Position numbers and translations under genes: made by a program. This document shows, one piece after another, positions 12,078 through 35,411 of a stretch of DNA of 64,000 nucleotides. This DNA comes from Vulcanimicrobium alpinum (GTDB lineage Bacteria > Vulcanimicrobiota > Vulcanimicrobiia > Vulcanimicrobiales > Vulcanimicrobiaceae). How positions within the stretch are numbered: position 1 is the stretch's first letter; every line of letters begins with the position of its first letter. The DNA is taken from contig NZ_AP025523.1 of NCBI RefSeq assembly GCF_027923555.1, positions 3,228,484 to 3,292,483 of the forward strand. Direction: 5' to 3'. The notes beneath the pieces were generated by a model. The model ran no database searches and was not told the DNA's origin. It worked only from the letters and a program-made list of their open reading frames with translations.

Positions 12078-12163
12078 CAGCTCGGCGTCGACAGCGGTCC
12101 GTCCGACTTCTGATCGGTCTCGCGACAGGCGCCGAACCGCCGGCGCGTGCAAGAGAGACGGGG

Positions 12164-17366: not shown

Positions 17367-17487
17367 GGGAAAAGGTGCCTCGTTATGCGGAGGGGGTAAA
17401 CGTTCCGCATGATACCTTCCGGGCGCCCCGGCGCGATGTAAGGATGCATACATCGGCTCGCCGGCACCTCGCGTTATCGTCGACCGC

Positions 17488-17877
17488 GTGGAAGCCGAGC
17501 ACACCCGAACGTCGTTTCTCGCCGGCCTTGCCGGCCTCGCCGCACTCGGTGCAGCGCCGGCCTCGGCGTCGGCGACGGGCGGGAAACCGACGTCACCACA
17601 CGGCCGGGTCGCCCGCGTGCGGATCAAAGACCTTGCGTTCACGCCGAAGGAATTGCACGTCGCCGCCGGCACCACGGTCATCTGGACGAACGAAGACGAT
17701 GTCGTTCACACCGTGACCAGCGGCGCCTCCGGCGACGACGGCCGTTGGACGAGTTCTCCCGGCCTCGCGCCCGGCCGGTCTTTCTCGCACACGTTCGCAG
17801 CGGCCGGAACGTACCCGTACTTCTGCAAGCCGCATTTCTACAACGACGCGATGCACGCCGCGATCGTCGTTACCTGA
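17488..17877 (+). CDS. cupredoxin (plastocyanin/pseudoazurin-like), exported
   Basis: Small blue-copper-type protein of 129 residues. After a signal (RTSFLAGLAGLAALGAAPAS) comes a single cupredoxin domain with RIKDLAFTPKELHVAAGTTV and IWTNEDDVVHTVTS, carrying the first His ligand. The C-terminal loop YFCKPHFYNDAMHAAIVV offers Cys, His and Met/His ligands in the usual C-x2-H order, with a somewhat longer loop than normal. It should carry one electron or hold copper in the periplasm. GTG start. The last bases overlap the end of the convergent Gfo/Idh/MocA gene by eight. A second cupredoxin is encoded at about 54 kb. Confidence 0.82.
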   Translation: MEAEHTRTSFLAGLAGLAALGAAPASASATGGKPTSPHGRVARVRIKDLAFTPKELHVAAGTTVIWTNEDDVVHTVTSGASGDDGRWTSSPGLAPGRSFSHTFAAAGTYPYFCKPHFYNDAMHAAIVVT

Positions 17878-18871
17878 TCTCCGTCCGCACCCCACCGGCG
17901 CGCGCCGATGCGCGCAGCGCTTCGATCGCGCGCAGCGTGCCGAGCGCGTCGTCGGGCGGGATGCGCAAGGGACGATCGTTCAGAATCGCGTCGGCGAATT
18001 CTTCGGCTTCGAGCTGGTACTGGTCGACGGCCGGCACCGTTTCCGTCCGCCGTCCGCTGCCGTCGCTCACGACGATCGTCGTCTCTCCGTTGGGGACGAA
18101 CGCGTTGGGGACGTCGATCTGTCCGCGCGTTCCGACGGCGGCGTACGACCCTTGTCCCCAGGCGCGGAATCCGCAGTCGAACGCCGCCATCCGCGCATCG
18201 GAGAAACCCAGGACGCCGGCGAGCGTCACCTCGACGCCGAACTCGGCGCGGTGATCCCACTGCGCGGACGCCCACTGCGGCTCCTCGCCGAAGAGCATGC
18301 GCGCCGCGTTGACGGCGTAGCACCCGACGTCCATCAAGGCACCGCCGGCGAGTTCGCTGCGCAAACGCACGTTCTGCGGCGGAAACGGTTCGAGTTGAAA
18401 GGTGAACGCCGAACGAACCGCACGCAGCTCGCCGATCGCGCCGGCATCGCGCAGCGCACGCACGCGCGCGTGCTGCGGGTGGAAACGGTACATGAACGCC
18501 TCCATCAGCAGGACGCCTCGCTCGCGGCAGCCGTCGATCATCTGCTGCGCCTGCGCGGCGTCGATCGCGAGCGGCTTCTCGCAGAGCACGTGCTTTCCGG
18601 CGGAGGCCGTCGCGAGCGTCCACTCCGCGTGCAGGCTGTTCGGGAGCGGGTTGTAGATCGCGTCGATCTCGGGATCGGCGAGCAGCTCTTCGTAGCTTCC
18701 GTAGGCGTGCGCGATCCCCAAACGCGTCGCGGCATCGCGTGCGCGCGCCGCGTCACGGCTCGCGATCGCGGTGACGACGCCGTTGCGCGACGCCGCCGCA
18801 CCGGGGATGAAGCGTTTGAGGCCGATGTTCGCCGTGCTGAGCACGCCCCAACGGATGCGGCGTTCGCTCAC
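17870..18871 (-). CDS. Gfo/Idh/MocA family oxidoreductase, copy 1
   Basis: NAD(P)-dependent dehydrogenase of 333 residues. The N-terminal Rossmann domain starts RIRWGVLSTANIGLKRFIPG, and the family signature AGKHVLCEKPLAIDAAQAQQ carries the catalytic EKP motif, followed by the C-terminal alpha/beta substrate domain (ALMDVGCYAVNAARMLFG). Members usually oxidise sugars, polyols or related hydroxy compounds. The GTG start overlaps the stop of the DUF885-like gene upstream (GTGA), so it is the last gene of the minus-strand GntR-TonB-DUF885 group. A second, distant family member lies in the facing operon. Confidence 0.88.
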   Translation of the reverse strand: MSERRIRWGVLSTANIGLKRFIPGAAASRNGVVTAIASRDAARARDAATRLGIAHAYGSYEELLADPEIDAIYNPLPNSLHAEWTLATASAGKHVLCEKPLAIDAAQAQQMIDGCRERGVLLMEAFMYRFHPQHARVRALRDAGAIGELRAVRSAFTFQLEPFPPQNVRLRSELAGGALMDVGCYAVNAARMLFGEEPQWASAQWDHRAEFGVEVTLAGVLGFSDARMAAFDCGFRAWGQGSYAAVGTRGQIDVPNAFVPNGETTIVVSDGSGRRTETVPAVDQYQLEAEEFADAILNDRPLRIPPDDALGTLRAIEALRASARAGGVRTEIR

Positions 18872-20067
18872 GCCTGGGGCTCGAACATCAGCAGCGATTC
18901 GGGCGTGTTGAGCTCGTCATAGAGCGTCGCCAGCAGCGCGCTCCGCGCCGCCGCCGGTGTCCGCTCACGCACGATGCGCACCGCTTCGCTGCCGAACCAG
19001 TACGACGCAAGAAACGGCGCGTCGAATGGATCTTCGGCGCGGCCGGTGCGCAGTTCAGACCACGCCTCGCTGCCGAAACCGACCTCGCGGAAATATGCGA
19101 CGGTGCGTTCGTGCGACCAGCCGGTGACGTTGCGGTGCCACGCGGCGTTCGTCCCGGTCGCCGTCTGCAGGCGGCGCAGCTGCACGTGCGCGGCGTCGTC
19201 GACGCTCTCGACCCAGTCGATCAGCTCGATCCCCTGATCGCCGATCCCCTCCTGCACGCTTCCGGGCGCACCGTTCACCGTGCACAGCAGCGCGTCGGCC
19301 GCACTCTTTCCCGTCTCGACCGCACGACGCGTCGAGAGCAATTGCGTCGAGTGCCCGGGGAACACTTCGTGGCAGACGAGGTGCTTGATCCCCGAGCGGC
19401 TCCACGGCACGTCGAGGTTGATATCCATATGCCCCTCGTCGAACGAGCAGCGGGCGGCGTAGGGAACGGCGCGCTGCGCGTTGAGCGGCATCGTGTAATC
19501 GCCGGTATCGAACACCAGCGCGTCGGTGCGCGCTTTCGCCGTTGCAAGCAGTTCGTCGTAGACGCGCGGGATATCGGCGACGTCGACGTGCGTCTCCGCC
19601 TCCCAGCGCTCGACGCGCTCGGCGAGCGCTCCGCGCACGTAGCCGCGCTTGGTCATCAGGCGATCGAGCTCGGCATGAATCGACGCGATCGTCTCGTCGG
19701 GAACGGGACCGGCGGGAACAGCGACGTGCTCGGTCAGCCGTTCCGCGAGCGAGAGCGATTCGCCGGAGAAGATGCGCGCCGCGGCGCGCACGGAGCGCAC
19801 CATCGCGGTCAGAAAGGTCTTCCGCCGCCCCTCGGGGAGCGCGGCGACCTCGGCGGCGAGGGCGTCGAGCGCGGCGATCGCCTCGGCGAACGATGCGAAG
19901 CGCGCCGGCTCGATGAGGCCGGCGCCGTTGAAGATCGGGACGAAGCGCTCCGAGCGCACGCCGGCGGCGCCGGCCGCACTCGTTTCGAGTGCGTCGACGC
20001 CCAGCGTGATCTCGGCGAGCCGTCGCCCCAGGGCGCGGTCGGCCCGCGCCTGGAGTGCGGTGGTCAT
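18868..20067 (-). CDS. DUF885-like putative metallopeptidase, copy 1 (HExxPGH motif intact)
   Basis: Mostly helical 399-residue protein with the DUF885 metal motif HEVFPGHS (H233, E234, H239) and an acidic partner motif VQEGIGDQGIEL about 40 residues later. No signal peptide, so cytosolic. DUF885 proteins look like zinc peptidases, but few have a proven substrate. Here the protein is shorter than the usual 550-600 residues and its N-terminal region is not recognisable as the full family domain. It sits between a TonB receptor gene (7-bp gap) and a Gfo/Idh/MocA gene that it overlaps by four bases, which points to processing of an imported compound. Confidence 0.7.
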   Translation of the reverse strand: MTTALQARADRALGRRLAEITLGVDALETSAAGAAGVRSERFVPIFNGAGLIEPARFASFAEAIAALDALAAEVAALPEGRRKTFLTAMVRSVRAAARIFSGESLSLAERLTEHVAVPAGPVPDETIASIHAELDRLMTKRGYVRGALAERVERWEAETHVDVADIPRVYDELLATAKARTDALVFDTGDYTMPLNAQRAVPYAARCSFDEGHMDINLDVPWSRSGIKHLVCHEVFPGHSTQLLSTRRAVETGKSAADALLCTVNGAPGSVQEGIGDQGIELIDWVESVDDAAHVQLRRLQTATGTNAAWHRNVTGWSHERTVAYFREVGFGSEAWSELRTGRAEDPFDAPFLASYWFGSEAVRIVRERTPAAARSALLATLYDELNTPESLLMFEPQA

Positions 20068-20074
20068 GGTCGCC

Positions 20075-23000
20075 TCAGATTTTGATGTGGAAGTCCGCGT
20101 ACACTGCGAAGGGAGCGCTCGGATTCACGACACCCATCGTGTACGCGCCCAGATACGGTGTGTACGGATACTGCGCGACGTTCTGGAACGTCGAGCCGGG
20201 ATTGTACGCGTTGCCGACCGGCGCGTTGATGCGCGAGATCTCACCGCTGATGTAGCTGCAGACGTGCGGCGTCGCGGCGCCCGTCCACGCAGTCTGCGAG
20301 CCGCCGAAGCACTGGTTGATGATGTTCGCCATCGTCACCGTAACGCCGGCGCGCTTGTTGAAGTCGTACGACATCGTCAGGCTCCCGAGGAGCTGGGTCG
20401 GCGAGCGGAACGCGCCGATGTCGTCGAACTTCCGCGTGAACGTGTTGGGGATCGCGTTGAGCGCCGCGGTGCAGGTCGTCGCGTCGAACGGCGAGCCGCC
20501 GACGGCGCCGTACGGATAGCGCGGATCGCCGGTGACCGATGACGCGAGCGCACCGCAGCCGCCGGCCGGATCGATGCCGGCGTTGGCCTCGGGCGCGCCG
20601 TACCGCTGTCCGGCCTGCAGCTGCAGCGACGGCGTGATCGCGAACCCGTGCTTGCGGTAGTTGAGCACGAGCGTCAGCACGTGCGGGACGGTGTAGCCGT
20701 TGATCCCCAGCCCCGTCGTCGCGACGACCGGGTCGGTCGGCCAGTACGACGCGGCAGGATCGAACAACCCCTGCACCGGCGCGTTCCAGTACGGGTTGGC
20801 GACGTTGATCGCGTTGCCTTTGGCGTCGACCGTGCCGCACGTCCCGCCGTTCCCGGCCGCACTGTAGCACGGCGCGGCAACCGCACCCGACGAGGTGACG
20901 CCGCAGCGCGGATCGCTCGCGTTGCTCGCGCAGAACGACGTGTACGCGTTGTACGCCTGGATGTCGTTGTTGATCGGCGAGAGGATCGAACCCCCGCCCG
21001 GAAGTTTGTAGTACTTGATCCGCGCGTCGGTGTAGGTGTAGGAAAGCAGCGCGGAGAGGCCGTCGCGTTCGAACGCGCCCTTACGCAATTGGAACTCCAG
21101 GCCTTTCGAGGTCAGCGAGCCGACCGGCAGGCCCGACGTCAACTGGTTCACCGGATCGATGAAGAATTCGGTGAGCTCGTTTTTCGTGGTCCGATAGAAC
21201 GGGGTGAGCTTGAACGAGATGTCGGTCCCCTGCAGCGCGTGCTCGAGCGAGAGGTCGGTGTTGTACGACTCCTGCGGCGGGATGTTGTGACCCGACCCGG
21301 TGTAGCCGTACTTGTAGAAGCGCTGCGCGAGGTACGCCGGCAGGTTCTGCTGGTGCGTGTTGTACTGCTGGAACGCGGTCGGCGGCGGCTGGCTGTACTT
21401 GCCGTAACTTGCGCGCAGCACGGTGTTGGGATCGACGGTGAAGGTCGCACCGATCCGCGGCTCCCATTCGGTGAACGTGTAGTTCGCCGGCGCGTTCGTC
21501 ATGTTCGGCCCGACGAAGGTCTGCCCGGCGGCGTTGTACGACGAGCACGGCAGGTTGATGTTCGACTTGCGGAATGGCGTGTTGCCCGGCGCGGCGTTGA
21601 CGCAATACGCGGTGTTGTACGCGTTGAACCAGAACGTTCTGGCACCGCCGGTCGTATCGGCGCCGACGACGCGATACTGATGGTAGCGCGCGCCGAAATC
21701 GAGCGTGAGGCGGTCGGTCGGCTTCCACTGGTCGCTCAGACTCCCGGCCGTCGTGTTCAGGACGACGGTGTTGAACGCGCCCGAGTTGCCGTTGTCGGCG
21801 ACGTAGTACGCGCACGGCCCGCTGCCGCAGGTGTAGCCCGTCAGCGTCCGGGGCGCCGCCGCGTTCCCGTAGGTGACGTTCGTCGAGACGCCGCGCGCGC
21901 AGGGCACCGGTGCCGCGACCAGCCCGGCTCCGCTCGCGACGTTGTAGCACACGCCGCTCGTCGGGTTGGTCGAGTCGACCGCGTAGGCGAACGGCGCGCC
22001 CTTCCCGGTCGCCCAGGCCGTGTTGTTGTCGCGCACCGACGGCGCGTGCCCGTACGAGGCCTGCGCCTGAATGAGGTGCTTCGAGGTGATCTGATCGGCG
22101 AACTCGGCGCTGTAGCCGCTGGTGTGCGTCCAGAGCTTGTAGTCCGGCGGTTCACCGAGGAACCCCGACGCGGGCGACGACGTGCCGTTCGGTGCGTCGA
22201 AGAGGAAGTACGAATACAGCGAGTAGCCGTAGACGCGCAGGTACGCGCTGCTCCCGAAGTTGTGCTGGTACTGCACCTTCGCGATCGTCTGACCGTTCTG
22301 CTGAAGATCGCGCAGCGACGCGGGGATCGTCCCGAACCGCACGCCGGGGAAGTAATAGGGCTGCACCAGCGACTGGTAGTTCGAGGGCAGCAGCGTTCCG
22401 ACGGCGCCGGTGTAGATGTTGCCGGTCGCGAACGGGTACGGCGCGACGCCGAGGTCGTTCGCCGAGTCGTAGATCGACGAAGCGATGTTGCCGGTCTGAT
22501 AGAGCAGTTGCACGTCGTCGCGCGCGCCGTCTTTCTTGTGCGGGATCCCGAAGTGCAGGTTGACGATCGTCTCGCGATCCTGGTTGTAGGCCGGCGCGAG
22601 GTAGTTCACCGGCGCGAGCCGGAAGCCGTCGGCGCCCACCTGCAGTCCGCCCGGGGTGAAGAGGCCGTTGCCCGCGTTGTAGCACGCCGCATAGGCGGCA
22701 TTGGCGCCGCACGGCAGGACGTCGTAGCCGTACCCGTACCGGCTCGTGTACGATGCGCCGTTGAAGTTGTCGACCAAGCGGAACGCCTGATTCGCGCCGA
22801 GCGTCCCCGCGTAGTACGAGATCGAACGGTCTTTCGACGCGCCGCTCACTTCGAACGAACCTTTGTGATAGAAGACCGGCGTCCCGAGGCCGCCGTCGAA
22901 GGTGATGCTGCCCGGCGACGTGCCCGTCTTGATGACCTGGTTGATGAATCCGGAGAGACCTTGCGACTCGGAGTTCGCCGGCGCCGAGCCGGCGTAGACT

Positions 23001-23710
23001 TGCGCTTCCTGCTGACCCAGCGTCGAAAGGTTGTTGCCGGGGAAGCCGTTCACGCCGACGTTGACGGGGATGCCGTCGAACTCGTAGCCGATCTGGCTGT
23101 GCGTGCCGCCGCGGATCACGACGCCGGCCATTTGCGACCAGCCGTTCTGACCCGACGGGACGAAGACGCCCGGCGTCGCGGCGAGCGCGGAATACGCTTG
23201 GTTCAGCGACCCGCCGCCGCCCAACCCCGCGATGCGCTCCTGCGTCGCGGCGTTCACGGAGTACGTGTCGGTCACCGTTCCGGCACGCACCAGGCTCGAC
23301 GACGCACGGCTGCGCACGTTGCCGATCGTCTGCAGCGTCTTGACCGCAGTGTAGTCGAGGCGCAGCGATTGGTCGGCGTTGATGGTGATCCCGCTGCCGA
23401 CGACATTCTGATACCCGGCTTTCACGGCGGTCAACGCGTACGTGTCCGGAGCGAGCGAGAGGAACGTGAAGCTGCCTCCGGCGTCGGTCGTCGTCGCCGC
23501 CGTTTGCGACGGGCTCGCAACGGTGACGCTCGCACCGGCAAGCGGCTGATGCGTGGTCGCATCGACGATCGAGCCGCTGAGCGAGCCGGTCGTCCCGGCG
23601 AAGGCGCTCGTCCCGGGGACGAGCAGCGCGAACAGCAGCGCGACGGCGATCAGCGACGCGAGAGGACGCGGATGGCGCACGAAAGTCTCCTGAGTTCCGA
23701 CCGTCATCAT
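20075..23710 (-). CDS. TonB-dependent receptor, 1211 residues, carboxypeptidase regulatory-like domain
   Basis: Large outer-membrane transporter. A signal peptide (LIAVALLFALLVPGTSAFA) is followed by a carboxypeptidase-regulatory-like domain (GSLSGSIVDATTHQPLAGAS, then GSFTFLSLAPDTYALTAVKA). The plug begins near 160 with TQERIAGLGGGGSLNQAYSA and VIRGGTHSQIGYEFDGIPV, and a long beta-barrel ends in YADFHIKI. At 1211 residues it is at the large end, like oligosaccharide or peptide receptors of Acidobacteria. ATG 23710 overlaps the GntR stop by one base (TGATG), so regulator and receptor share a transcript. Together with the DUF885 and dehydrogenase genes downstream this suggests uptake followed by breakdown; the ligand is not known. 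Confidence 0.88.
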   Translation of the reverse strand: MMTVGTQETFVRHPRPLASLIAVALLFALLVPGTSAFAGTTGSLSGSIVDATTHQPLAGASVTVASPSQTAATTTDAGGSFTFLSLAPDTYALTAVKAGYQNVVGSGITINADQSLRLDYTAVKTLQTIGNVRSRASSSLVRAGTVTDTYSVNAATQERIAGLGGGGSLNQAYSALAATPGVFVPSGQNGWSQMAGVVIRGGTHSQIGYEFDGIPVNVGVNGFPGNNLSTLGQQEAQVYAGSAPANSESQGLSGFINQVIKTGTSPGSITFDGGLGTPVFYHKGSFEVSGASKDRSISYYAGTLGANQAFRLVDNFNGASYTSRYGYGYDVLPCGANAAYAACYNAGNGLFTPGGLQVGADGFRLAPVNYLAPAYNQDRETIVNLHFGIPHKKDGARDDVQLLYQTGNIASSIYDSANDLGVAPYPFATGNIYTGAVGTLLPSNYQSLVQPYYFPGVRFGTIPASLRDLQQNGQTIAKVQYQHNFGSSAYLRVYGYSLYSYFLFDAPNGTSSPASGFLGEPPDYKLWTHTSGYSAEFADQITSKHLIQAQASYGHAPSVRDNNTAWATGKGAPFAYAVDSTNPTSGVCYNVASGAGLVAAPVPCARGVSTNVTYGNAAAPRTLTGYTCGSGPCAYYVADNGNSGAFNTVVLNTTAGSLSDQWKPTDRLTLDFGARYHQYRVVGADTTGGARTFWFNAYNTAYCVNAAPGNTPFRKSNINLPCSSYNAAGQTFVGPNMTNAPANYTFTEWEPRIGATFTVDPNTVLRASYGKYSQPPPTAFQQYNTHQQNLPAYLAQRFYKYGYTGSGHNIPPQESYNTDLSLEHALQGTDISFKLTPFYRTTKNELTEFFIDPVNQLTSGLPVGSLTSKGLEFQLRKGAFERDGLSALLSYTYTDARIKYYKLPGGGSILSPINNDIQAYNAYTSFCASNASDPRCGVTSSGAVAAPCYSAAGNGGTCGTVDAKGNAINVANPYWNAPVQGLFDPAASYWPTDPVVATTGLGINGYTVPHVLTLVLNYRKHGFAITPSLQLQAGQRYGAPEANAGIDPAGGCGALASSVTGDPRYPYGAVGGSPFDATTCTAALNAIPNTFTRKFDDIGAFRSPTQLLGSLTMSYDFNKRAGVTVTMANIINQCFGGSQTAWTGAATPHVCSYISGEISRINAPVGNAYNPGSTFQNVAQYPYTPYLGAYTMGVVNPSAPFAVYADFHIKI

Positions 23711-24393
23711 CAGGGCTGCATCTCCGAGAGCCGCACGTACGCGGTGCGCAGGTGCTCTTCGATCATCTCGATCGCGCGTTCGGGTTCACGCGCGCGGATG
23801 ATCTTGAGCAGCGCGACGTGTTCGTGCAGCGCCTTGGTGAAATAGTCTTGCGTGTCGGTCGAGCGCGAGTGAAGAAAGGTCTCAATTTGGGGACGCAGTG
23901 CCGACCACGCCAGATAGAGCCGCGAATGGCGCGCGGCCCGATAGACGAGGTCGTGAAAAGCGGCGTCGAGTTCGACGGTGCGGCGCGCGTCGCTGGCCGC
24001 CACGGCGGCCTTGAGCTCTTCGACGACGCCTTCCATCGCGGCGAAATCATCCTCGTCGGCGAACCGCGCCGCGCGCTCGATCGCGAGCCGCTCCATTACG
24101 GTACGCAGGGAGTAGATCTCGTCGATGTCTTCCTTAGAGAGGCGCGTCACCCGCGCGCCCCGGTGCCGCTCCACCTTGAGCAGGCCCTCGCGTTCGAGCT
24201 GCGTGAGGGCTTCGCGGATCGGCCCGCGGCTCACGCCGAACGCATCGGCCAGGGCCGCTTCGCTCAGACGCTGGTCGGGGCCGAACTCGCCTCGGATGAT
24301 CGCCGAGCGCAACCGATCGACGACGTCGTCCGAAAGACTCCGCCGCAGAGGGATGGCCAGTTCGCCGAGAGCGTCCTTGTCCAGAGAAGCCAA
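23710..24393 (-). CDS. GntR family regulator, FadR subgroup (FCD domain)
   Basis: Transcription factor of about 227 residues. The winged helix is near the N-terminus (SDDVVDRLRSAIIRGEFGPD, then SRGPIREALTQLEREGLL), followed by the all-helical FCD ligand domain with the metal-binding His set (ELDAAFHDLVYRAARHSRL and KALHEHVALLKII). I place the start at TTG 24393 because CGGAG lies nine bases upstream. An in-frame TTG at 24435 would add 14 residues reading through a likely operator. The gene sits between its presumed targets: the receptor gene downstream on the same strand and the divergent lyase operon. FCD regulators usually sense carboxylic acids, so the inducer is probably an intermediate of this locus. 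Confidence 0.85.
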   Translation of the reverse strand: MASLDKDALGELAIPLRRSLSDDVVDRLRSAIIRGEFGPDQRLSEAALADAFGVSRGPIREALTQLEREGLLKVERHRGARVTRLSKEDIDEIYSLRTVMERLAIERAARFADEDDFAAMEGVVEELKAAVAASDARRTVELDAAFHDLVYRAARHSRLYLAWSALRPQIETFLHSRSTDTQDYFTKALHEHVALLKIIRAREPERAIEMIEEHLRTAYVRLSEMQP

Positions 24394-24420
24394 AACGCGA
24401 GACTCCGAGGATTGCAAACT

Positions 24421-24497
24421 GTCAACGGTTAACAATCTGCCGTAGCCGGACAGTAACCGAGCCCCCTCGTCCTGTCAATAGCCTGGGAGTACACGCT
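24421..24497. promoter_or_regulatory. shared control region of the GntR locus with imperfect palindrome
   Basis: The only gap between the minus-strand regulator group and the plus-strand operon. It contains GTCAACGGTTAAC (24421-24433), an imperfect palindrome with GTYAAC half-sites, which could be the GntR operator. GGGAG at 24485-24489 is the ribosome site of the lyase gene. No confident -10 or -35 pair is seen. Operator assignment is inference. Confidence 0.4.
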
Positions 24498-25403
24498 TTG
24501 AAGAGCATGCCGCGTCTCGCCGGCGTGTGCGCCGCCGCGCTCACCCCGCTGGACGCCGACCTCGCGCCCGACACCGAGGCCCTGGTCGGGCACTTGCGGC
24601 GACTCCTCGCCGGCGGCTGCGACGCGATCAACCTGCTCGGGACGACCGGCGAGGCGACGTCCTTCTCCGTCGAGCAGCGCCTGCGCGTCCTCGAGGCCGT
24701 CGCGGCCTCCGGCCTGCCGCTCGAAGCGATCATGGTCGGCACCGGGGCGGCGGCGCTCTCAGATGCCGTGCGGCTGACCCGCCGCGCGACCGAGTTGGGC
24801 TACGCCGGAGCGCTCGTGATCCCGCCGTTCTACTATAAGAACGTCGGCGACGACGGAGTGACGGCGTACTATGCGGCGCTGATCGAACGCGTTTCCGACC
24901 CGCGCCTCCGCCTCTACCTCTATCACTTCCCGGCGATGAGCGGGGTTCCGATCACCGCCGACGCGATCGCGCGGCTGCGTTCCGCGTACGGTGCGACGAT
25001 CGTCGGCGTGAAAGACAGCGCGAACGCGCCGGGCTACGCAGCGGGACTCGTTGCGCAGTTTGCGGATCTCGACGTTTTCCCGAGTACCGAAGCGATCCTC
25101 GCGACGGCGCGCCGCGACGGGTTCGCCGGCTGCATCTCGGCGACGGTCAACGTTACGGCGGAGTTGGCCGGCAGCGTCTGGCACGCAGGCGAGGACGACC
25201 CGCAGCGCGCATCGCGGCAGGAGCTGCTGAGCGCGCAGCGCGCGACGATCGGGCGCTTTCCGCTGATCCCTGCTCTGCGTCATCTCATGGCGCGCCGGAC
25301 GGATGACGACGCCTGGCTGCGCATCGTGCCGCCGCTGCGTCCGCTCGAGGCGCGCGATGCCGCGGAACTCGACGCCGAGCTTGCGCTCGAGGCGGTTCGA
25401 TGA
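24498..25403 (+). CDS. DapA-family lyase (dihydrodipicolinate synthase/N-acetylneuraminate lyase superfamily)
   Basis: Schiff-base aldolase or dehydratase, 301 residues, TIM barrel. The substrate loop INLLGTTGEATSFS matches the GTTGE motif, the catalytic Tyr lies in LYLYHFPAMSGV and the Schiff-base Lys in TIVGVKDSANAPGYA. The start is TTG, with GGGAG eight bases upstream; an ATG three codons later is the alternative. It heads a six-gene operon that contains no lysine biosynthesis genes, so a catabolic role is more likely than DapA proper, for example handling a 2-keto-3-deoxy acid or deaminating a hydroxyproline-type intermediate. The family cannot be subdivided safely by eye. Confidence 0.82.
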   Translation: MKSMPRLAGVCAAALTPLDADLAPDTEALVGHLRRLLAGGCDAINLLGTTGEATSFSVEQRLRVLEAVAASGLPLEAIMVGTGAAALSDAVRLTRRATELGYAGALVIPPFYYKNVGDDGVTAYYAALIERVSDPRLRLYLYHFPAMSGVPITADAIARLRSAYGATIVGVKDSANAPGYAAGLVAQFADLDVFPSTEAILATARRDGFAGCISATVNVTAELAGSVWHAGEDDPQRASRQELLSAQRATIGRFPLIPALRHLMARRTDDDAWLRIVPPLRPLEARDAAELDAELALEAVR

Positions 25404-26479
25404 AGGTCACGATCGTCGGTGCCGGCGCGATCGGCGGCCTCGCGGGCGCGTTCATGACCAAGGCGGGCTACGACGTTCTGCTGGTCGACCGCTGGCAGGA
25501 ACACGTCGACGCACTCAACCGCGACGGGCTCTTCATCGACGGGATCCGCGGCGAGATGCGCATCCCCGTGCGCGCGGCCACGCCCGAAACGCTGACCGGT
25601 CCGCTCGAAGCGGTCCTGATCGCGACGAAATCGCAGCACACCGGCGACGCGGTGCGCGAAATTCTTCCGCTGTTCGGCCCGCAGACGTTCATCGTCTCGT
25701 ATCAGAACGGATTCAACGAACCGCTGATCGCCGAGATTCTGCACGGCGCGGGGCTCGGAGGGATGGAACGCGTGATCGGCTCGATCCCCAACTACGGCGG
25801 CGCGCTCGTCGATCCCGGTCACATCGAGTTTGTCCACGAGGGACCGATCCAGCTAGGCGAGATGAACGGCGCGTCGACGCCGCGGCTCGAAGAACTCGCG
25901 CGCATGCTCGAAGCGCTCACGGTCGTGCAGCGCTCGAACAACATCTGGGGCCAGATCTGGGCGAAGGAAGTGTATTCGGCGCAAGTCGTCTTCTCGGCGC
26001 TCGCCGACGCGCCGATCCGCGAGACGCTCGGCGTGGAGCGGTACGCGCGCGTCGCCGGCGCCGTCGTCCGTGAAGCGCTCGAGATCGCCGACGCCAACGG
26101 GATCACCGTCGAAGCGTTCGACTTCTTCGACCCCGCGAACTACCGGCCGCAGACGCCGGCCGACACGCGCAGACTGCTCGACAATATCAACCACGCGATC
26201 TGGCTCCTCAAGAAAGACCAGAAGCCCGAGACGCACCAGTTCCGCAAGAAGGGCTCGGGGATCTGGTGGGACATCGTCTACCGCAACCGCCCCTCCGAAG
26301 TGCGCGCGTCGAACGGCAAGCTGATCCACTTCGGCCGCGCTGCGGGCGCCGACGTGCGGCTCAGCGAGAAACTCTGCTCGATGATCTACGAGATCGAAGA
26401 CGGGACGCGGCCGCTGGGCTTCCAGAACTTCGACGAACTCGAAGCGTACGTGCAGTCGATCGGGAAGGCGCTGCCGTGA
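25400..26479 (+). CDS. ketopantoate reductase family protein
   Basis: NAD(P)H-dependent reductase-like protein of 359 residues, about 50 longer than PanE. The Rossmann start MKVTIVGAGAIGGLAGAFM and VLIATKSQHTGDAV fit the ApbA/PanE N-terminal domain. The C-terminal helical domain contains SNNIWGQIWAKEVYSAQVVF, with the Lys-x3-S/N region of the active site, and a later DNINHAIWLLKKDQKPET segment. The unusual C-terminal extension (GSGIWWDIVYRNRPSEVRAS) is not typical of PanE. ATGA overlap with the lyase gene and GTGA with the next gene. The cluster context suggests reduction of a 2-oxo acid or oxidation of a 2-hydroxy acid other than pantoate. Confidence 0.8.
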   Translation: MKVTIVGAGAIGGLAGAFMTKAGYDVLLVDRWQEHVDALNRDGLFIDGIRGEMRIPVRAATPETLTGPLEAVLIATKSQHTGDAVREILPLFGPQTFIVSYQNGFNEPLIAEILHGAGLGGMERVIGSIPNYGGALVDPGHIEFVHEGPIQLGEMNGASTPRLEELARMLEALTVVQRSNNIWGQIWAKEVYSAQVVFSALADAPIRETLGVERYARVAGAVVREALEIADANGITVEAFDFFDPANYRPQTPADTRRLLDNINHAIWLLKKDQKPETHQFRKKGSGIWWDIVYRNRPSEVRASNGKLIHFGRAAGADVRLSEKLCSMIYEIEDGTRPLGFQNFDELEAYVQSIGKALP

Positions 26480-27594
26480 GCGGCGTGCTGAACGTCGGCG
26501 TGATCGGCGCCCACCGCTGGGCCGAGAGCGCGCATCTCCCTGGCTACGCCGCCAACGACCGCGCGTGCGTCGTCGCGATCTGCGACGTCAAGATCGAGCG
26601 TGCGCGCGCGATGGCCGAGAAGTTCGCGATCCCCAAGGTGTACGCGAACCATCACGACCTGCTCGCCGATCCCGCGGTGCAAATGGTCGATGTGTGCACG
26701 CCGACCCACACCCACCTCGCGCTCAGCACCGATGCCGTCAACGCCGGCAAGCACGTCCTCAGCGAAAAACCGCTGGCCAACCGCGCCGACGACGCGTTCG
26801 CGCTGGCGCGGCTCGCCGATGCGCGCGGCGTGCGCACGAAGCTGGGCTTCACGTTCCGCTACTCGCCGGCGATGCGGCAATTGCGCGCCTGGATCGCCGA
26901 CGGCACGCTCGGCGAGATCTTCCACATCCACGGATTCGAGCAAAATTCGCAGTTTCTCGATCCGGATTTTCCGCTGCGGCAAGTGACGCCCGGCGCGCCG
27001 CGCGACCGCCTCATCCCCTCGTCGGTGGTCGGTTACGGCTCGCACTTGGTCGACCTGATGCGGTGGTGCGGCGGGGAGTTTGCGCACGTGACGGCGTCGC
27101 TGCGCAACTTCGTCCCCGAGCGCGTGGTGCGCGGCGAACCCGGCCGCCAGCGGATCCTGGTCGAAGACGGCGCGATCGGCCTAGTCGAGTATGCCGCGGG
27201 GACGCAAGGGCTGCTGCAGACGTCGTACATCGCGGTCGGCAACTATCCCGGCGTCGAGGTGCGCGTCTACGGCTCGAAGGGCGCGGCGATCGCGCGGCTG
27301 ATCGACGAGCACGGCGTCGCCGAAACGCTGACGCACGCGCGCGCCGACGCGGTCGAGTTCGAGCGGATCGCGATCGGCACCGATGCGCTCCCGCCCGGGA
27401 CGACGCTCGCGACGCCGTGGCCGGAACTGTACTACCGCAACCTCGTCCGTCACTTCGTCGACGAGATCCTCGACGACGGCCCGGCCGACTGCACGTTCTT
27501 CGACGGCGCGAAAAGCCAGGAGATCGTCAACGCGCTCATCCGTTCGCACGACGAGCGGCGCTGGATCGCGCTCGGCGCGGATCACGCGGCGTGA
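26476..27594 (+). CDS. Gfo/Idh/MocA family oxidoreductase, copy 2
   Basis: Dehydrogenase of 372 residues. The N-terminal Rossmann domain opens LNVGVIGAHRWAESAHLPGY; DVCTPTHTHLALSTDAVNAG and KHVLSEKPLANRADDAF give the family signature with the EKP catalytic Lys. The C-terminal substrate domain includes SSVVGYGSHLVDLMRWCGG, where the conserved His of the active site lies. GTG start, overlapping genes on both sides. The first motif is GAHRWAES rather than GxGxxG, as in some family members. It is only distantly similar to the copy near 18 kb. The substrate is likely a sugar- or opine-like hydroxy compound, by family and context only. Confidence 0.87.
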   Translation: MSGVLNVGVIGAHRWAESAHLPGYAANDRACVVAICDVKIERARAMAEKFAIPKVYANHHDLLADPAVQMVDVCTPTHTHLALSTDAVNAGKHVLSEKPLANRADDAFALARLADARGVRTKLGFTFRYSPAMRQLRAWIADGTLGEIFHIHGFEQNSQFLDPDFPLRQVTPGAPRDRLIPSSVVGYGSHLVDLMRWCGGEFAHVTASLRNFVPERVVRGEPGRQRILVEDGAIGLVEYAAGTQGLLQTSYIAVGNYPGVEVRVYGSKGAAIARLIDEHGVAETLTHARADAVEFERIAIGTDALPPGTTLATPWPELYYRNLVRHFVDEILDDGPADCTFFDGAKSQEIVNALIRSHDERRWIALGADHAA

Positions 27595-29159
27595 CGCCAT
27601 TCGACGAACTCGTCGATGATTTTCTCGACGTTCACTGGGCGTTCGCGCCGATCGACGCCTCGTTCGCCGGCGAGATCGCGTACGACGGAAGCCTGCCGCC
27701 GTGCGATCTCGGCGCGCCCGCCCGCCACGCCGGCGAACTGCGCGAACTCATGCGGCGCCTCGACGCGGTCGTCGTCCCCGCCGATCCCGGTGCGCGGCTC
27801 GACGCACGGCTGATGCGCGCGCACGCGGCGCACGTCCTCGACCAGCTCGCCGGGCGCAGCCGCTTTCACAATCCCGCCTGGTACACCGGCGAGATCGCGT
27901 TCGGTCTGATCGCGCTGCTGCTGCCGCGCGCGGCGCCGCGCGATCCCGACGCATTCGCACGCCGCGTCGCGCTCATCCCCGATCTGCTTGCGGACGCGGC
28001 GATGCACCTGCGCGGGACCCGCGTTCCGGCCGACTGGACGGTGCGCGCGCGGAAAGAGTGCGCTGCGATCGCGCGGCTGCTCGGCCGCATCGAAGGCGTC
28101 GCGGGAACGAGCGCCGCCGTCGCCGCTCTGCGGCGGTTCGAGGCCGCGATCGCCGAACGGCCCGATGCCGATCCGGCCGCCGGCGAAGCGCGGATGACGA
28201 GGCTGATCCGCGACGTGCACGGTCTCGACGCCACCGCCGCGACGCTCGAACGCGACGCCGCGGCGGCGTTCGCGGAGGCGGAAGCGGCACTTGCGGAGGC
28301 TGCGGAGCGTCACGATCCGGCGCATACTTGGCGCGAGCAGATCGCACGTCTGGGCGAACTCGGCCCCGCGCCCGACGGCGCCCTTCCGTCGTATCGCACG
28401 TGGCACGATCGTGCCTTGCGCGACGCGGAGCCGCTGCTCACGCCGGCATCCGACTACGCGCTGGAGTTCGCGCTGCTCCCCGAGTGGGCGCGCGACGTCG
28501 CGGGCGACCTGTACTTCCTGTTCTACCGTTCGCCCGCGGCGCGCCGCCCCGGCAACGGCAGCATCTATTGGGTGTCGCCGCCCGAAGGCGACGACGACGC
28601 CGTGCGGCGCGCGCACAACACCGCGGCCGTGAAGCTCGTGCACGCCGTGCACCACGGCAGCATCGGCCACCACACGCAGAACGCGCGCGCGCGGCGAGCG
28701 GCGTCGCGGCTCTCGCGCATCGCCGGCACCGACTGCGCGAGCGGGATCATGATGCTCGCCGCCGGGACGATGGTCGAAGGCTGGGCCTGCTACGCCGAAG
28801 ATCTGCTCGAAGAGGTGCCGGAGTTCTACACGCCGGCCGAGCGCGTAATGCTGCGCTACTTCGAGTTCCGCAACATCGCGTGCTGCCTCGCCGACCTGCG
28901 GCTGCATCTCGGCGTGTGGACGCTGGAGCAGATGCGCGCGTTCTATCGCGACGAGGTCGCGTTTGCGCCGGCGCGGATCTGGAACGAGACGACCCGCAAC
29001 GCGATGTTCCCCACCAGCCGGCTGATGTACTGGACCGGGACGCAGCAGATTAAAACGCTGCGCGCGCGCTCGCGGCTCCCCGCCCGCGTCTTCCACGACC
29101 GGCTGCTCTCGTTCGGGTCGGTGCCGGTTGCCTGGATCGATCAGGAGGTTCCGGCATGA
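27591..29159 (+). CDS. DUF885 family protein, copy 2, with altered zinc motif
   Basis: Helical protein of 522 residues, near full family length, no signal peptide. The C-terminal family landmark MVEGWACYAEDLLEEV (E396-G-W-A) and the end NAMFPTSRLMYWTGTQQIKT are present. The position of the family HExxPGH motif reads HHGSIGH (354-360), so the usual Glu is His and the Pro is Ile. If the family is a metallopeptidase, catalysis by this copy would need a different general base. It overlaps its neighbours by four bases on both sides and so is translated with the rest of the operon. The copy at 19 kb keeps the canonical motif, so the two may have different jobs on one pathway. Confidence 0.78.
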   Translation: MTPFDELVDDFLDVHWAFAPIDASFAGEIAYDGSLPPCDLGAPARHAGELRELMRRLDAVVVPADPGARLDARLMRAHAAHVLDQLAGRSRFHNPAWYTGEIAFGLIALLLPRAAPRDPDAFARRVALIPDLLADAAMHLRGTRVPADWTVRARKECAAIARLLGRIEGVAGTSAAVAALRRFEAAIAERPDADPAAGEARMTRLIRDVHGLDATAATLERDAAAAFAEAEAALAEAAERHDPAHTWREQIARLGELGPAPDGALPSYRTWHDRALRDAEPLLTPASDYALEFALLPEWARDVAGDLYFLFYRSPAARRPGNGSIYWVSPPEGDDDAVRRAHNTAAVKLVHAVHHGSIGHHTQNARARRAASRLSRIAGTDCASGIMMLAAGTMVEGWACYAEDLLEEVPEFYTPAERVMLRYFEFRNIACCLADLRLHLGVWTLEQMRAFYRDEVAFAPARIWNETTRNAMFPTSRLMYWTGTQQIKTLRARSRLPARVFHDRLLSFGSVPVAWIDQEVPA

Positions 29160-30781
29160 ACGGGTTGCGCGCGTGTGCGCTCGCCGCGGCGAGCCTCTTC
29201 GTTGCCGGATGCGCGAGCAGCAGCGGCCCGAGCGGCGGGACTACACACGCCCACTGGCTGCGGCTCGCGACCGGCGGCGGTGACCCCAACAGCCTCAACA
29301 TCCATCAGGATCCGTCGCTTACCGCCGGGATCATCGCAGAACTCTCGCAGGCGTACCTGGTGCGCTACGACCGCAACGGAAATCCGGTCCCGGAACTGGC
29401 GACCGAGATCCCGACGCAGCGCAATCACGGGATCAGCGCCGACGGGAAGACGATCGTGTGGCACCTGCGCCGCGGCGTGCGCTGGTCGGACGGCGCTCCG
29501 TTCAGCGCCGACGACGTCGTGTTCACCGTACGCGCGATCCTCAACCCGAAGAATAACGAAGAACAGGGCACCGTCGGCTGGGATCTGATCGCGCAGATCG
29601 ACGAGCCTGACAAGAACACCGTCGTGTTTCACCTCAAGCGGCCGTACTCCGATTATCTCCCGCTCTACTTCGGGACGGCGGGGAACGAGCCGTGCATCCT
29701 GCCGCAGCACATCCTGGGGAAACTCGCGTCGTTCAACGACGCGCCGTACAATGCGGCGCCGGTCGGAATCGGGCCGTTCCGGGTGACGGCGTGGCGGCGC
29801 GGCGACGCGATCGAACTGGAAGCGAACCCGTACTACTGGCGCGGCAAGCCGAAACTGGAGCGCATCACCTACAAACTGATCCCCTCGCAGGAGACGCTGA
29901 CGGCGCAGATGCAGACCGGCGAAGTCGACCTGTGGCCCGAGACCCCGCCGAGCTACATCGATCGGCTCAAAGCCGCACCGTCGCTGCGCGTTCGCGTCGC
30001 TCCCAACTATCGCACCACCAACCTCGACTTCGTCGTGACGCGGCCCAACGTCGCCGACCCGCGCGTTCGCCGCGCGATCCGCAAGGCGCTCGACCGGCGC
30101 GAACTCGTCGCGAAGATTCTCCACGGCTACGGCTTCCTGCACGACGGCGTCGCGATTCCGCTCGCGCCGCCGGCGCCTGAGAGCGTCGTCGACCGGTACG
30201 ATCCCGCAGGTGCGCGCGCGCTGCTCGACGCCGCGGGCTGGCGCGCCGGCGCGAACGGGATCCGCGCCAAGAACGGCGTCCCGCTCGCGCTCGATCTGGT
30301 GTATCCGGCGGGATCGGCCGAGCTCGACGGTCAGACCGAACTGCTGCGCGCGTATCTCAAAGCGGTCGGCATCGAGGTGCAGAGCAAGAAGTACGCGCCG
30401 AACATCTTCCGCGCGCTGCAGCAGAACGGCGGCATTCTCTACGGCGGCAAGTACGACATGGCGAGCTACCCGCGCACGCTGCAGTCGGTCGCCGACGTGC
30501 GCGGACTGTACAGCTGCGCGTCGCGCCCGCCCAACGGCGAGAACGCGAGCCGCTACTGCAGCCCCGAGGCCGACGCGCTGCTCGACCGCATCCAAGGGAC
30601 GTACGGCGAGCAGGAGCGCAAGGCGCTGCTCGCCCGTTACCAGCAGCGCCTCAACGACGACGCGCCGACGATCATGCTCTTCGCGTGGAAGGGCGGAACC
30701 GCCGCGAACGTGCGCGTGACCGGATTCGATCCGCCGATCCTCACGCCGTTCGACGATATGATGGGCGTCGACGCGCGATGA
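29156..30781 (+). CDS. family-5 (DppA/OppA-type) solute-binding lipoprotein
   Basis: Extracytoplasmic binding protein of 541 residues from the oligopeptide/dipeptide/nickel group. The lipobox is LFVAGC with Cys19. Typical blocks are GKTIVWHLRRGVRWSDGAPF, DVVFTVRAILNPKN, RGDAIELEANPYYWRGKP and VRRAIRKALDRRELVAKIL. The ligand could be a peptide, opine or glycoside. ATGA overlaps join it to the DUF885 gene upstream and the hydroxyacid dehydrogenase gene downstream. No permease or ATPase is encoded in the operon or anywhere in the window, so transport must borrow components from elsewhere or the protein has a non-ABC role. Confidence 0.88.
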   Translation: MNGLRACALAAASLFVAGCASSSGPSGGTTHAHWLRLATGGGDPNSLNIHQDPSLTAGIIAELSQAYLVRYDRNGNPVPELATEIPTQRNHGISADGKTIVWHLRRGVRWSDGAPFSADDVVFTVRAILNPKNNEEQGTVGWDLIAQIDEPDKNTVVFHLKRPYSDYLPLYFGTAGNEPCILPQHILGKLASFNDAPYNAAPVGIGPFRVTAWRRGDAIELEANPYYWRGKPKLERITYKLIPSQETLTAQMQTGEVDLWPETPPSYIDRLKAAPSLRVRVAPNYRTTNLDFVVTRPNVADPRVRRAIRKALDRRELVAKILHGYGFLHDGVAIPLAPPAPESVVDRYDPAGARALLDAAGWRAGANGIRAKNGVPLALDLVYPAGSAELDGQTELLRAYLKAVGIEVQSKKYAPNIFRALQQNGGILYGGKYDMASYPRTLQSVADVRGLYSCASRPPNGENASRYCSPEADALLDRIQGTYGEQERKALLARYQQRLNDDAPTIMLFAWKGGTAANVRVTGFDPPILTPFDDMMGVDAR

Positions 30782-31812
30782 TCGTGATGGTCGCGAGCCC
30801 GCTCGAAGCAGCGCTCGTCGAACGGATTCGCGCCTGCGACGCGGTCTCGGAGGTGCTCTATGACCCGGCGCTGCTGCCGCCGCCGCGCTACCCGTGCGAC
30901 CACGGCGGCGACCCGTCGTTCGCGCGCGACGCCGCCGGCGAGGCGCGCTGGCAGGCGATGCTCGCGCGCGCCGACGCGATCCTGGGCTATCCGAACGAAA
31001 GCCCCGACGGCCTGCGCGCGTCGCTCGCCGCCGGACCGCGGATTCGCTGGGTGCAGGGAACGTCGGCGGGGATGGGCGCGCACATCCGGCGGGCGCAGCT
31101 CAACGCGGCGACGCTCGAGCGCGTGACCTTTACCTCGGCGGCGGGCGTGCACGCGGGGATGCTCGCCGAGTTCGCGTTCTACGGCCTGCTCGCGCTGCGC
31201 AAGGACGCGGCGCGGCTCGCCGCGATCCGCGCCGAGCGGGCGTGGCAGCACTATCCGATGGGCGAACTCGACGGCTCGACGATCGCGATCGTCGGGATGG
31301 GCCAGATCGGCCGCGCGATCGCGCAGCGTGCGCGCGCGTTCGGGATGCGCGTGACGGCGGTGAACCGCAGCGGCGAGCCGGATCCGCTCGCCGAGCGTAC
31401 CTTCCCGACGGCGCAGGTGCGCGAGGCGCTCGCCGGCGCCGACGCGGTCGTCGTCACCCTGCCGATCACCGAACGCACGCACCATCTCGTCGACGCCGCA
31501 GCACTCGCCGCGCTCGCGCCGGCAGCGATCGTCGTCAACGTCGGCCGCGGCGCGGTGATCGATCAAGCCGCGCTGATCGACGCGCTGCAGCGCGGCACGC
31601 TCGCGGGCGCCGTGCTCGACGTCTTCGATCCCGAACCGTTGCCGCCCGACAACCCGCTGTGGACGATGCCCAACGTCATCTTCAGCCCGCACACCGCCGC
31701 GCTCTCGCTGCACGAGAATGCGCGCATCGCCGATCTGCTCTGCGAGAACGCGCGCCGCGTCGCACGCGGCGACCGGCCGCGCAATCTCGTCAATCTGCGC
31801 GAGTTCTACTAG
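30778..31812 (+). CDS. D-isomer-specific 2-hydroxyacid dehydrogenase
   Basis: NAD(P)-dependent oxidoreductase of 344 residues interconverting a 2-oxo acid and its D-2-hydroxy acid. The nucleotide-binding segment is STIAIVGMGQIGRAIAQRAR; VVNVGRGAVIDQAALIDALQ carries the catalytic Arg region's usual context, LDVFDPEPLPPDNPLW the Glu, and SPHTAALSLHEN the His. The long N-terminal domain includes WVQGTSAGMGAHI, as in the hydroxypyruvate/phenylpyruvate reductase subgroup. It is the last of six overlapping genes; the next gene starts 46 bp later. The substrate is not determinable, but the lyase and KPR-like enzymes of this operon also handle 2-oxo acids. Confidence 0.87.
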   Translation: MIVMVASPLEAALVERIRACDAVSEVLYDPALLPPPRYPCDHGGDPSFARDAAGEARWQAMLARADAILGYPNESPDGLRASLAAGPRIRWVQGTSAGMGAHIRRAQLNAATLERVTFTSAAGVHAGMLAEFAFYGLLALRKDAARLAAIRAERAWQHYPMGELDGSTIAIVGMGQIGRAIAQRARAFGMRVTAVNRSGEPDPLAERTFPTAQVREALAGADAVVVTLPITERTHHLVDAAALAALAPAAIVVNVGRGAVIDQAALIDALQRGTLAGAVLDVFDPEPLPPDNPLWTMPNVIFSPHTAALSLHENARIADLLCENARRVARGDRPRNLVNLREFY

Positions 31813-31858
31813 CGCCGCAGCGCGAGGTCGCGCGGTCCGGCGATGCGAAGGGCCGCGC

Positions 31859-33031
31859 ATGCTGATCGCCGCCGTGCTCTCGGCTTGGGTGCAGTTCGCC
31901 GTTGACGGAGCGCCGCACGCTCGAGCGCTGGTCACGACCGCGTGCCCGGCGCTGCGCGCCGACGGCGCGCGGATCCCGATGCGCGTGCGCGCGCCGATCG
32001 ATCTCGATCGTCACTGGGACGAGGCGGTCTGCGACGCGCCGGTGCCGCCGCACGCAAAGGCGTTGGCGGTGGAAAACACGCCGCTCCCCGCCATTCCGCG
32101 CACCGTCCGCACGGTCGTCGTCTTCGGCGACACCGGTTGCCGGATGAAGGGCGGCGAACAGCAGAACTGCGGCGACCTCGCCGGCTGGCCGTTCGCGCGC
32201 ATCGCGCGTTCGATCGCGCGCGTGCATCCCGACGTCGCGATTCACGTCGGCGACTACTACTACCGCGAGAACAACTGCGCGCCCGGGATTCAAGGCTGCA
32301 TCAACTACTGGGGCGACACGAGCATGTCGTGGGTCGCCGATTGGTTCGCCCCCGCGGCGCCGATCTTCGCGCGCGTCCCGCTGCTGCTGAGCCGGGGAAA
32401 CCACGAAGACTGCAAGCGCGGCGGCGCGGGCTGGTACCGCTACCTCGAACCGAGTGCGGCGACGGCGTGCGCCGACCCGATCCCCGTCGACGAAGGGACG
32501 ATGCCGTATGCAGTCGCGCTCGATCGCTTGCGTGTCGTGATGCTCGACTCCGCGTCGGACGCGAGCGACACGCCGGCCGATCCGGCGCGTACCGCGTACT
32601 ATCAGCGCTCGCTGGACGCGGCGGCCGCGCTGGGCGGCGGCGGCGGCGGCGATGCATGGATCGTCACCCATCGTCCGCCATATGCGAACGCGAACATGTC
32701 CGCGGTGCTGAAGGCGAAGCCTGCGGAGTTCGCGCCGTTCACGCTCGTCCTCGCCGGACACGTGCACGACTTCGCGACCGCGAATCTGACGGGCTTCCCG
32801 CCGCTGATCGTCAACGGCGAAGGCGGCGACGAACTCGACGAAGCCGACGCGGTCGGCGGGTTCATCAACGGCAACGGCCATGCGTTCGCCTCGCCCGCGC
32901 CGTTCGCAACGAAGCAGTTCGGGTTCGCCGTGTACACGCGGAGCGCGCAGGGGTGGTCGATCTCGCTGCGCGATGCGGACGGGATCGAGCGTCGCGCGTG
33001 CGCGTTCGCGCACGGCGCGGTGGGCTGCTGA
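31859..33031 (+). CDS. metallophosphoesterase (calcineurin-like), copy 2
   Basis: Paralogue (390 residues) of the protein at 12.2 kb, sharing its layout from MLIAAVLSAWVQFAVDGAPH to the tail GFAVYTRSAQGWSISLRDA. Metal-site blocks are VVFGDTGCRMKG, HPDVAIHVGDYYYREN, LLLSRGNHEDCK, WIVTHRPPYAN and LVLAGHVHDFATANL. A Gly-run (residues near 260) marks a loop absent from copy 1. The hydrophobic N-terminus may be a short export signal. The stop overlaps the next start by one base (TGATG). The two copies have diverged strongly but keep every catalytic residue, so both are probably active. Confidence 0.82.
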   Translation: MLIAAVLSAWVQFAVDGAPHARALVTTACPALRADGARIPMRVRAPIDLDRHWDEAVCDAPVPPHAKALAVENTPLPAIPRTVRTVVVFGDTGCRMKGGEQQNCGDLAGWPFARIARSIARVHPDVAIHVGDYYYRENNCAPGIQGCINYWGDTSMSWVADWFAPAAPIFARVPLLLSRGNHEDCKRGGAGWYRYLEPSAATACADPIPVDEGTMPYAVALDRLRVVMLDSASDASDTPADPARTAYYQRSLDAAAALGGGGGGDAWIVTHRPPYANANMSAVLKAKPAEFAPFTLVLAGHVHDFATANLTGFPPLIVNGEGGDELDEADAVGGFINGNGHAFASPAPFATKQFGFAVYTRSAQGWSISLRDADGIERRACAFAHGAVGC

Positions 33032-33707: not shown

Positions 33708-33771
33708 TCACGCTGAGCCTTTCGTCACGCTGAGCCTGTCGAAGCGCAGCCGCTGACGACCTCAGCGTGAC
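33708..33771. repeat. dispersed inverted repeat, copy B
   Basis: A half copy (TCACGCTGAGCCT, 33708-33720) is followed by a full left arm at 33724-33753 starting GTCACGCTGAGC and continuing CTGTCGAAGCGCAGC. A short reverse-oriented remnant (CTCAGCGTGAC, 33761-33771) supplies the TGA stop codon of the solute-binding protein gene that ends here, encoding its terminal Ser-Arg. Confidence 0.85.
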
Positions 33772-35375: not shown

Positions 35376-35411
35376 CGCCGCCTCGTTCACGGATCGGGGC
35401 GGTTCGCCCCG

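Follow-up and report, generated by a model that had tools for sequence, protein, structure and literature searches.

What is the role of a divergent locus that combines a GntR/FCD regulator, a TonB-dependent receptor, two DUF885-type proteins, a solute-binding lipoprotein, an aldolase-family enzyme and several dehydrogenases? As far as searched, the literature on DUF885 (PF05960), on the breakdown of mycosporines and on the family names in combination described no pathway or cluster with this gene set; the original prediction likewise knew of none with a name. The locus lies in a stretch of 64,000 nucleotides (hereafter, the window) of Vulcanimicrobium alpinum, at genome positions 3228484-3292483. 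Strain WC8-2, a member of the Eremiobacterota with a genome of 3.50 Mbp, grew on yeast extract and on none of the tested sugars or single amino acids (PMC9758169). The phylum has very few cultured members, and the host genome is complete (3,508,363 bases); the identity of the substrate may help to explain what V. alpinum-like bacteria eat.

Organization of the locus

All ten of the genes originally predicted in two facing arms were present: four in the minus and six in the plus arm, with a 62-bp gap between the annotated starts (24436-24497) (Table 1). The order in the minus operon was GntR/FCD regulator, TonB receptor, 399-aa protein and Gfo/Idh/MocA dehydrogenase; in the plus operon it was DapA-family enzyme, KPR-like enzyme, Gfo/Idh/MocA dehydrogenase, DUF885 protein, SBP5 lipoprotein and D-2-hydroxyacid dehydrogenase.

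Table 1. Features of the locus (positions in the window).
Feature	Position	Strand	Basis
GntR/FCD transcriptional regulator	23710..24435	-	Pfam FCD 85 bits, GntR 70 bits
TonB-dependent receptor, N-terminal carboxypeptidase-regulatory-like domain	20075..23710	-	Pfam
399-aa DUF885-related protein, core gene	18868..20067	-	Orthologues in other phyla and profile match
Minus-arm Gfo/Idh/MocA dehydrogenase	17870..18871	-	Pfam
DapA-family (DHDPS-like) aldolase/lyase, heads plus operon	24498..25403	+	Pfam DHDPS 115.9 bits
KPR/ApbA-like NAD(P)-dependent oxidoreductase, 359 aa, core gene	25400..26479	+	Pfam ApbA domains
Plus-arm Gfo/Idh/MocA dehydrogenase, core gene	26476..27594	+	Cluster orthologues
DUF885 (PF05960) protein, variant active site, core gene	27591..29159	+	Pfam 133.5 bits
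SBP_bac_5 (SBP5) lipoprotein, peptide/nickel-type solute-binding, VAGC lipobox	29156..30781	+	Pfam 273.9 bits
D-2-hydroxyacid dehydrogenase, ends plus operon	30778..31812	+	Pfam 187.6 bits
Candidate operator, imperfect palindrome TGTCAACGGTTAACA	24420..24434		Dyad scan, inferred

Four-base overlaps (ATGA or GTGA), a mark of translationally coupled operons, were found at all five junctions of the plus arm (GTGA between the KPR-like and Gfo genes) and, as GTGA, between the genes for the 399-aa protein and the minus-arm Gfo. These overlaps suggest starts at 26476 for the plus-arm Gfo, 27591 for DUF885 and 30778 for the D-2-hydroxyacid dehydrogenase. The predicted layout, an FCD regulator and a receptor facing a six-gene operon, was correct except that the regulator does not stand apart: its stop codon overlaps the start of the receptor gene (TGATG), which places it at the head of the minus operon. 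Its annotated start is a TTG, and the true start may lie further in, at the TTG at 24417 or at 24393.

One feature, the short gap shared by the arms, suggests that the GntR/FCD protein governs both of them. The candidate operator was the sole genomic site at up to one mismatch, which a 15-mer would also show by chance, and its uniqueness was set aside as evidence.

Calcineurin-like phosphoesterases flanked the locus on both sides (window 11876-13309 and 31718-33031), the second followed by a VOC/glyoxalase domain within frame 31942-33420. A second outer-membrane-type protein with a carboxypeptidase-regulatory domain, and no scored barrel, was encoded beside the locus (window 13316-16054), and a DUF7482 protein directly adjoined it (window 16140-17681).

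A four-gene core conserved in other phyla

The gene-neighbourhood search that the original prediction had proposed converted a one-genome guess into a defined module. By sequence comparison, the conserved core consists of four genes: the 399-aa DUF885 relative, the KPR-like oxidoreductase, the plus-arm Gfo/Idh/MocA dehydrogenase and the variant DUF885. Outside the host genome, this core was found again in two further phyla, in no fewer than 11 genomes or plasmids (loci L006-L008, L010, L067-L071, L106 and L107; partially in L005, L009 and L011), and the clustering is therefore not due to chance. The four genes lay within about 15 kb, with KPR identities higher than 70%. Carriers were Deinococcus plasmids, Sphingomonadales, Lichenicola and Ensifer, so the core is distributed over Deinococcota, Pseudomonadota and the phylum of the window. 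A catabolic island as such is nothing unusual; what sets this one apart is its lack of an assigned role, its spread over three phyla and a DUF885 subfamily whose active-site motif is changed.

The same 8 of 72,556 plasmid records (five from Deinococcus, two from Ensifer adhaerens and one from Lichenicola) held the KPR-like protein (72-77% identity), the Gfo (68-73%) and the 399-aa protein (42-49%). Considering all the clusters, the KPR-like protein was 72-81% identical in Alphaproteobacteria and Deinococcus, the plus-arm Gfo 64-73% and the 399-aa orthologues 42-49%; scanning genomes with the plus-arm DUF885 as query retrieved alphaproteobacterial proteins at 45-58% identity, with core partners adjoining. 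The order KPR-Gfo-DUF885 was fixed in Deinococcus, Lichenicola, Ensifer and the window, and sphingomonads showed the order 399-aa protein, Gfo, DUF885, with the KPR gene, where found, a few kb away. The gene for the 399-aa protein adjoined the core in every locus with enough flanking DNA, except L011. A Gfo dehydrogenase was present in each arm, as predicted, but this symmetry was not conserved: only the plus-arm copy belongs to the core, and neither the minus-arm Gfo nor the receptor had a counterpart in the other clusters.

The plasmid clusters of Deinococcus (D. ficus pDFI1, D. actinosclerus and Deinococcus sp. QL22, D7000 and KNUC1210) resembled the window in the KPR-Gfo-DUF885 order (KPR 74-77%, Gfo 68-73% identical), the divergently oriented 399-aa relative and the SBP5 gene. 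They differed in having an IclR instead of a GntR regulator, their own permeases and no annotated TonB receptor; around the core, M24, RraA-type aldolase, SDR and M29 genes were found where the window has the DapA-family and D-2-hydroxyacid dehydrogenase genes. Their genes were named by family only, with no function assigned. On the KNUC1210 plasmid (L107, 9001-10041) the KPR gene was matched in three pieces, is annotated as a hypothetical fragment and looks broken.

The alphaproteobacterial version (Sphingomonas jatrophae, Lichenicola cladoniae and Ensifer adhaerens) shared the four core genes, SBP5 and a D-2-hydroxyacid dehydrogenase with the window, and in S. jatrophae and L. cladoniae also a TonB receptor, though its receptor and dehydrogenase were not orthologous to those of the window. 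It differed by its LysR regulator, a full Opp-type ABC transporter, a GhrA-like dehydrogenase and VOC genes. A gamma-glutamyltransferase-type gene was present in S. jatrophae, L. cladoniae and L010, but absent in the window and in Deinococcus.

In the alphaproteobacterial locus L011 (5678-13428), a Gfo-DUF885 (HHGS) pair stood after DUF2817 and PepSY_TM genes and near sugar-type ABC genes and an FGGY kinase; the DNA examined for this locus contained no KPR gene.

Active sites of the DUF885 pair

The plus-arm protein exceeded the Pfam cut-off for DUF885 clearly (133.5 vs. 32.4 bits), but carried HAVHHGSIGHHTQ where HEAxPGHHLQ is expected, with EGWACY kept. The metal-binding/catalytic motif of the MA clan, HExxPGH, was thus replaced by HHGSIGHH, the Glu being changed to His and the Pro to Ile or Val among the cluster proteins. 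HHGS[IV]GHH was found in 13 of 13 cluster members (the window protein and 12 homologues from three phyla), and HExxPGH in 35 of 36 other DUF885 loci (the remaining locus gave no call). Around the altered motif, GTD[CG]A, EGWACY and N[AT]RAR were kept, which argues against simple decay. These proteins define a DUF885 subfamily with an active-site signature unlike that of the rest of the family. Lacking the catalytic-type Glu, the variant may hydrolyse nothing.

The AF2 model of the plus-arm protein (pLDDT 88) matched best the solved DUF885 structures 3IUK, 3U24 and 3O0Y (VIA Z 29.6-29.9, rmsd 2.9-4.0, 487-496 residues aligned), whose overall fold it shares, although the cluster proteins have HHGS[IV]GHH in place of HExxPGH. 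M32, M3 and M2 metallopeptidases were matched less strongly (Z 9-14, values that are weak on their own for a helical protein). The modelled fold is that of peptidase MA type, with which the Pfam clan assignment of DUF885 agrees (PMC12572635). No function assigned to the solved structures or to the DUF885 family was found in the literature searched.

A DUF885-like protein had been predicted in both arms. The pairing proved to be conserved, but the minus-arm 399-aa protein had no Pfam match and its homology emerged from orthologues and profiles: the orthologues touched DUF885 below the threshold (22.5-22.7 vs. 32.4 bits, E~1e-4), and a comparison of the 399-aa family profile with that of the plus-arm DUF885 family gave E 1.6e-6 (probability 90%, 225 columns), pairing HEVFPGH with HHGSIGH and EGI with EGW. 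The motif of the 399-aa protein was intact (HEVFPGH...EGIGD), its H, E, PGH and EG being invariant in 11 of 11 sequences of the family, and a cytosolic metallopeptidase or amidohydrolase is predicted. The DUF885 pairing across the arms is thus judged real at the sequence level, its two members differing at the active site. No solved structure was found for the 399-aa protein by sequence search, and its AF2 model was set aside as too poor (pLDDT 56).

Acquired core and native parts

The original prediction had named a lack of conservation in related genomes as grounds for refutation; the outcome was an unexpected one, the core being absent from the host's own phylum and conserved in distant ones. 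Among about 148 genomes of the phylum, there was no close homologue of the KPR-like protein (best about 35-36% over any long stretch), no 399-aa protein (one marginal fragment at 26%) and no close homologue of the variant DUF885 (relatives at 22-38%, of the canonical type where read). The minus-arm Gfo was also foreign to the family: of the 99 family genomes, the host's was the sole one with a match at E<=1e-40.

Other genes had relatives close to home. The host genome encodes a paralogue of the SBP5 protein (at 1243649) with 59% identity, and relatives were present in 99 of 99 family genomes; those of the receptor (36-51% identical, among them relatives at 47-49%) were found in 66 of 99, and those of the D-2-hydroxyacid dehydrogenase (57-62%) in 7 family genomes, in surroundings with none of the other locus genes. 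By these similarities, the receptor, SBP5 and D-2-hydroxyacid dehydrogenase are considered native. The top six plasmid matches of SBP5 were the SBP5 genes of other clusters (33-35% identity); a strict orthology with these was rejected, since the protein is closer to its native paralogues. When plasmids were searched for co-occurrence of the DapA-family gene, the D-2-hydroxyacid dehydrogenase and the minus-arm Gfo with the core, the best matches lay elsewhere. The DapA-family and D-2-hydroxyacid dehydrogenase genes are local additions.

The simplest reading of these comparisons is a chimera, in which a mobile catabolic core would have entered the lineage and been combined with uptake parts already native there and with a new regulator. 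The GC content was level across the locus; this absence of a shift points to an old transfer or to a donor that was itself GC-rich. The scan of the window for tRNAs and islands revealed one tRNA-Leu, at 59.6 kb. Trees grouped the window with Deinococcus in the concatenation, but single genes were unresolved or placed elsewhere, and because of this inconsistency no donor is named.

SBP5 lipoproteins were strongly expanded in the family (up to 14 scored matches per genome, 14 candidates being scored, and at least some in 99 of 99 genomes). Three were encoded in tandem in this genome (e.g. 1050675-1055542), and another SBP_bac_5 lipoprotein, about 35% identical to that of the operon, was encoded just downstream of the locus on the minus strand (window 33762-35390).

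Proposed function and alternatives

No member of the core reached a function-level NCBIfam model. The DapA-family gene scored below the cut-off of TIGR00674 (108.3 vs. 206.15 bits) and the KPR-like gene, despite its Pfam ApbA domains, below that of TIGR00745 (PanE; 136.9 vs. 141.35 bits); by these scores, both names are to be read as family-level labels. No ABC permease or ATPase was encoded at the locus, which thus lacks a complete importer; 23 BPD_transp_1 domains were encoded elsewhere in the genome, including three pairs of neighbouring Opp-type permease genes (at about 399-401, 882-883 and 888-890 kb).

We give about an even chance to a catabolic module that was gained by horizontal transfer and connected to uptake parts of native origin, by which an amide- or peptide-like conjugate would be split and a hydroxy acid oxidised. 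The receptor and SBP5 would import a small conjugate, peptide-like or amide-linked, which would cross the inner membrane through an Opp-type permease whose genes lie outside the locus. Both cytosolic DUF885-fold proteins would act at the amide: the 399-aa protein as a zinc hydrolase (HExxPGH plus Glu), and the variant DUF885 through an altered metal chemistry or as a partner of the 399-aa protein. Gfo, KPR and D-2-hydroxyacid dehydrogenase may then oxidise the released hydroxy acid stepwise to a 2-oxo acid (the redox direction is presumed), which the DapA-family enzyme, or the RraA-type one in Deinococcus, might cleave to pyruvate or a like product. Each version contains an aldolase-family enzyme of the pyruvate type, from a different family in each; this is circumstantial but would agree with a 2-oxo acid as the intermediate. 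The GntR/FCD regulator would sense the substrate or a product and control both arms from the 62-bp gap. Such a locus resembles Opp/Dpp-type peptide uptake coupled to cytosolic peptidases in its SBP5 lipoprotein, outer-membrane receptor and peptidase-fold proteins, but differs in the NAD(P)-type dehydrogenases and aldolase that follow and in having neither permease nor ATPase on site. A bolder and distinctly less probable extension is that the pathway is an undescribed one, portable across Deinococcota, Pseudomonadota and Eremiobacterota, in which the DUF885 protein with the rebuilt site (HHGSxGHH) carries out, together with its intact relative, a metal-dependent reaction other than peptide hydrolysis. 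If the substrate were known, four protein subfamilies that are so far uncharacterised would gain a function together.

A sugar or cyclitol pathway, in which Gfo would take the first step, on an amine conjugate of a sugar or cyclitol (mycosporine-like or glycosylamine), and DUF885 would do no more than trim an attached amino acid, is rather unlikely. The nearest NCBIfam equivalogs of both Gfo proteins were sugar and inositol dehydrogenases (levoglucosan, inositol and xylose, all below cut-off), two plasmid relatives of the DapA-family gene had sugar-acid-type neighbourhoods, and the sugar-type ABC transporter and FGGY kinase beside the L011 pair point the same way; two carriers are lichen-derived (Lichenicola and a lichen MAG), a link with few genomes behind it. 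However, oligopeptide-type ABC genes were present in nearly all the other carriers and the conserved core has no kinase or isomerase. Substrates could also differ between clusters, L011 with its sugar-type transporter and carbohydrate kinase being an example.

The original prediction had offered a peptide- or opine-like compound. A peptide- or amide-like one fits the content of the other clusters, but nothing specific to opines was found, and it is improbable that SBP5 (NikA/CntA-like) and the receptor import a metal-opine which KPR, Gfo and D-2-hydroxyacid dehydrogenase degrade. SBP5 did score 154 bits against NikA and 106 bits against the staphylopine binder CntA, far below the cut-offs (393 and 800) and similar to its scores against peptide binders; furthermore, the Pfam matches of the ten locus proteins included no opine dehydrogenase (PF02317-type), and the conserved clusters shared no metal-related genes. 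By these tests the locus works like one for peptide or conjugate uptake and catabolism, not like an opine metallophore system. Little more can be said for recycling of peptidoglycan or gamma-glutamyl peptides through D-lactyl or gamma-linked parts, which is quite improbable: the peptide transporter, the D-2-hydroxyacid dehydrogenase and the gamma-glutamyltransferase-type gene would suit it, but that gene has the patchy distribution described above and the clusters read contained no gene annotated as a muropeptide enzyme. That the arms are unrelated operons merely sharing a promoter region is very improbable; the lack of counterparts for the minus-arm Gfo and receptor would agree with it, but the 399-aa protein of the same arm adjoined the core constantly (bar L011) and was carried by an identical set of plasmids.

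Two further loci deserve mention beside the preferred uptake-and-catabolism reading. One, in the host genome (L095, 397000-404200), encodes an SBP5 protein, two permeases and, next to them, a TonB receptor that shares about 40% identity with that of the locus, and is a candidate native peptide-type uptake system. The other lies on the Neorhizobium galegae plasmid pNgVX (L072, 1385-13203) and may represent a sister pathway: it encodes a protein distantly related to the 399-aa one (32%), together with a peptide-type ABC transporter, M24 peptidases, an AstE/AspA-type deacylase and an amidohydrolase.
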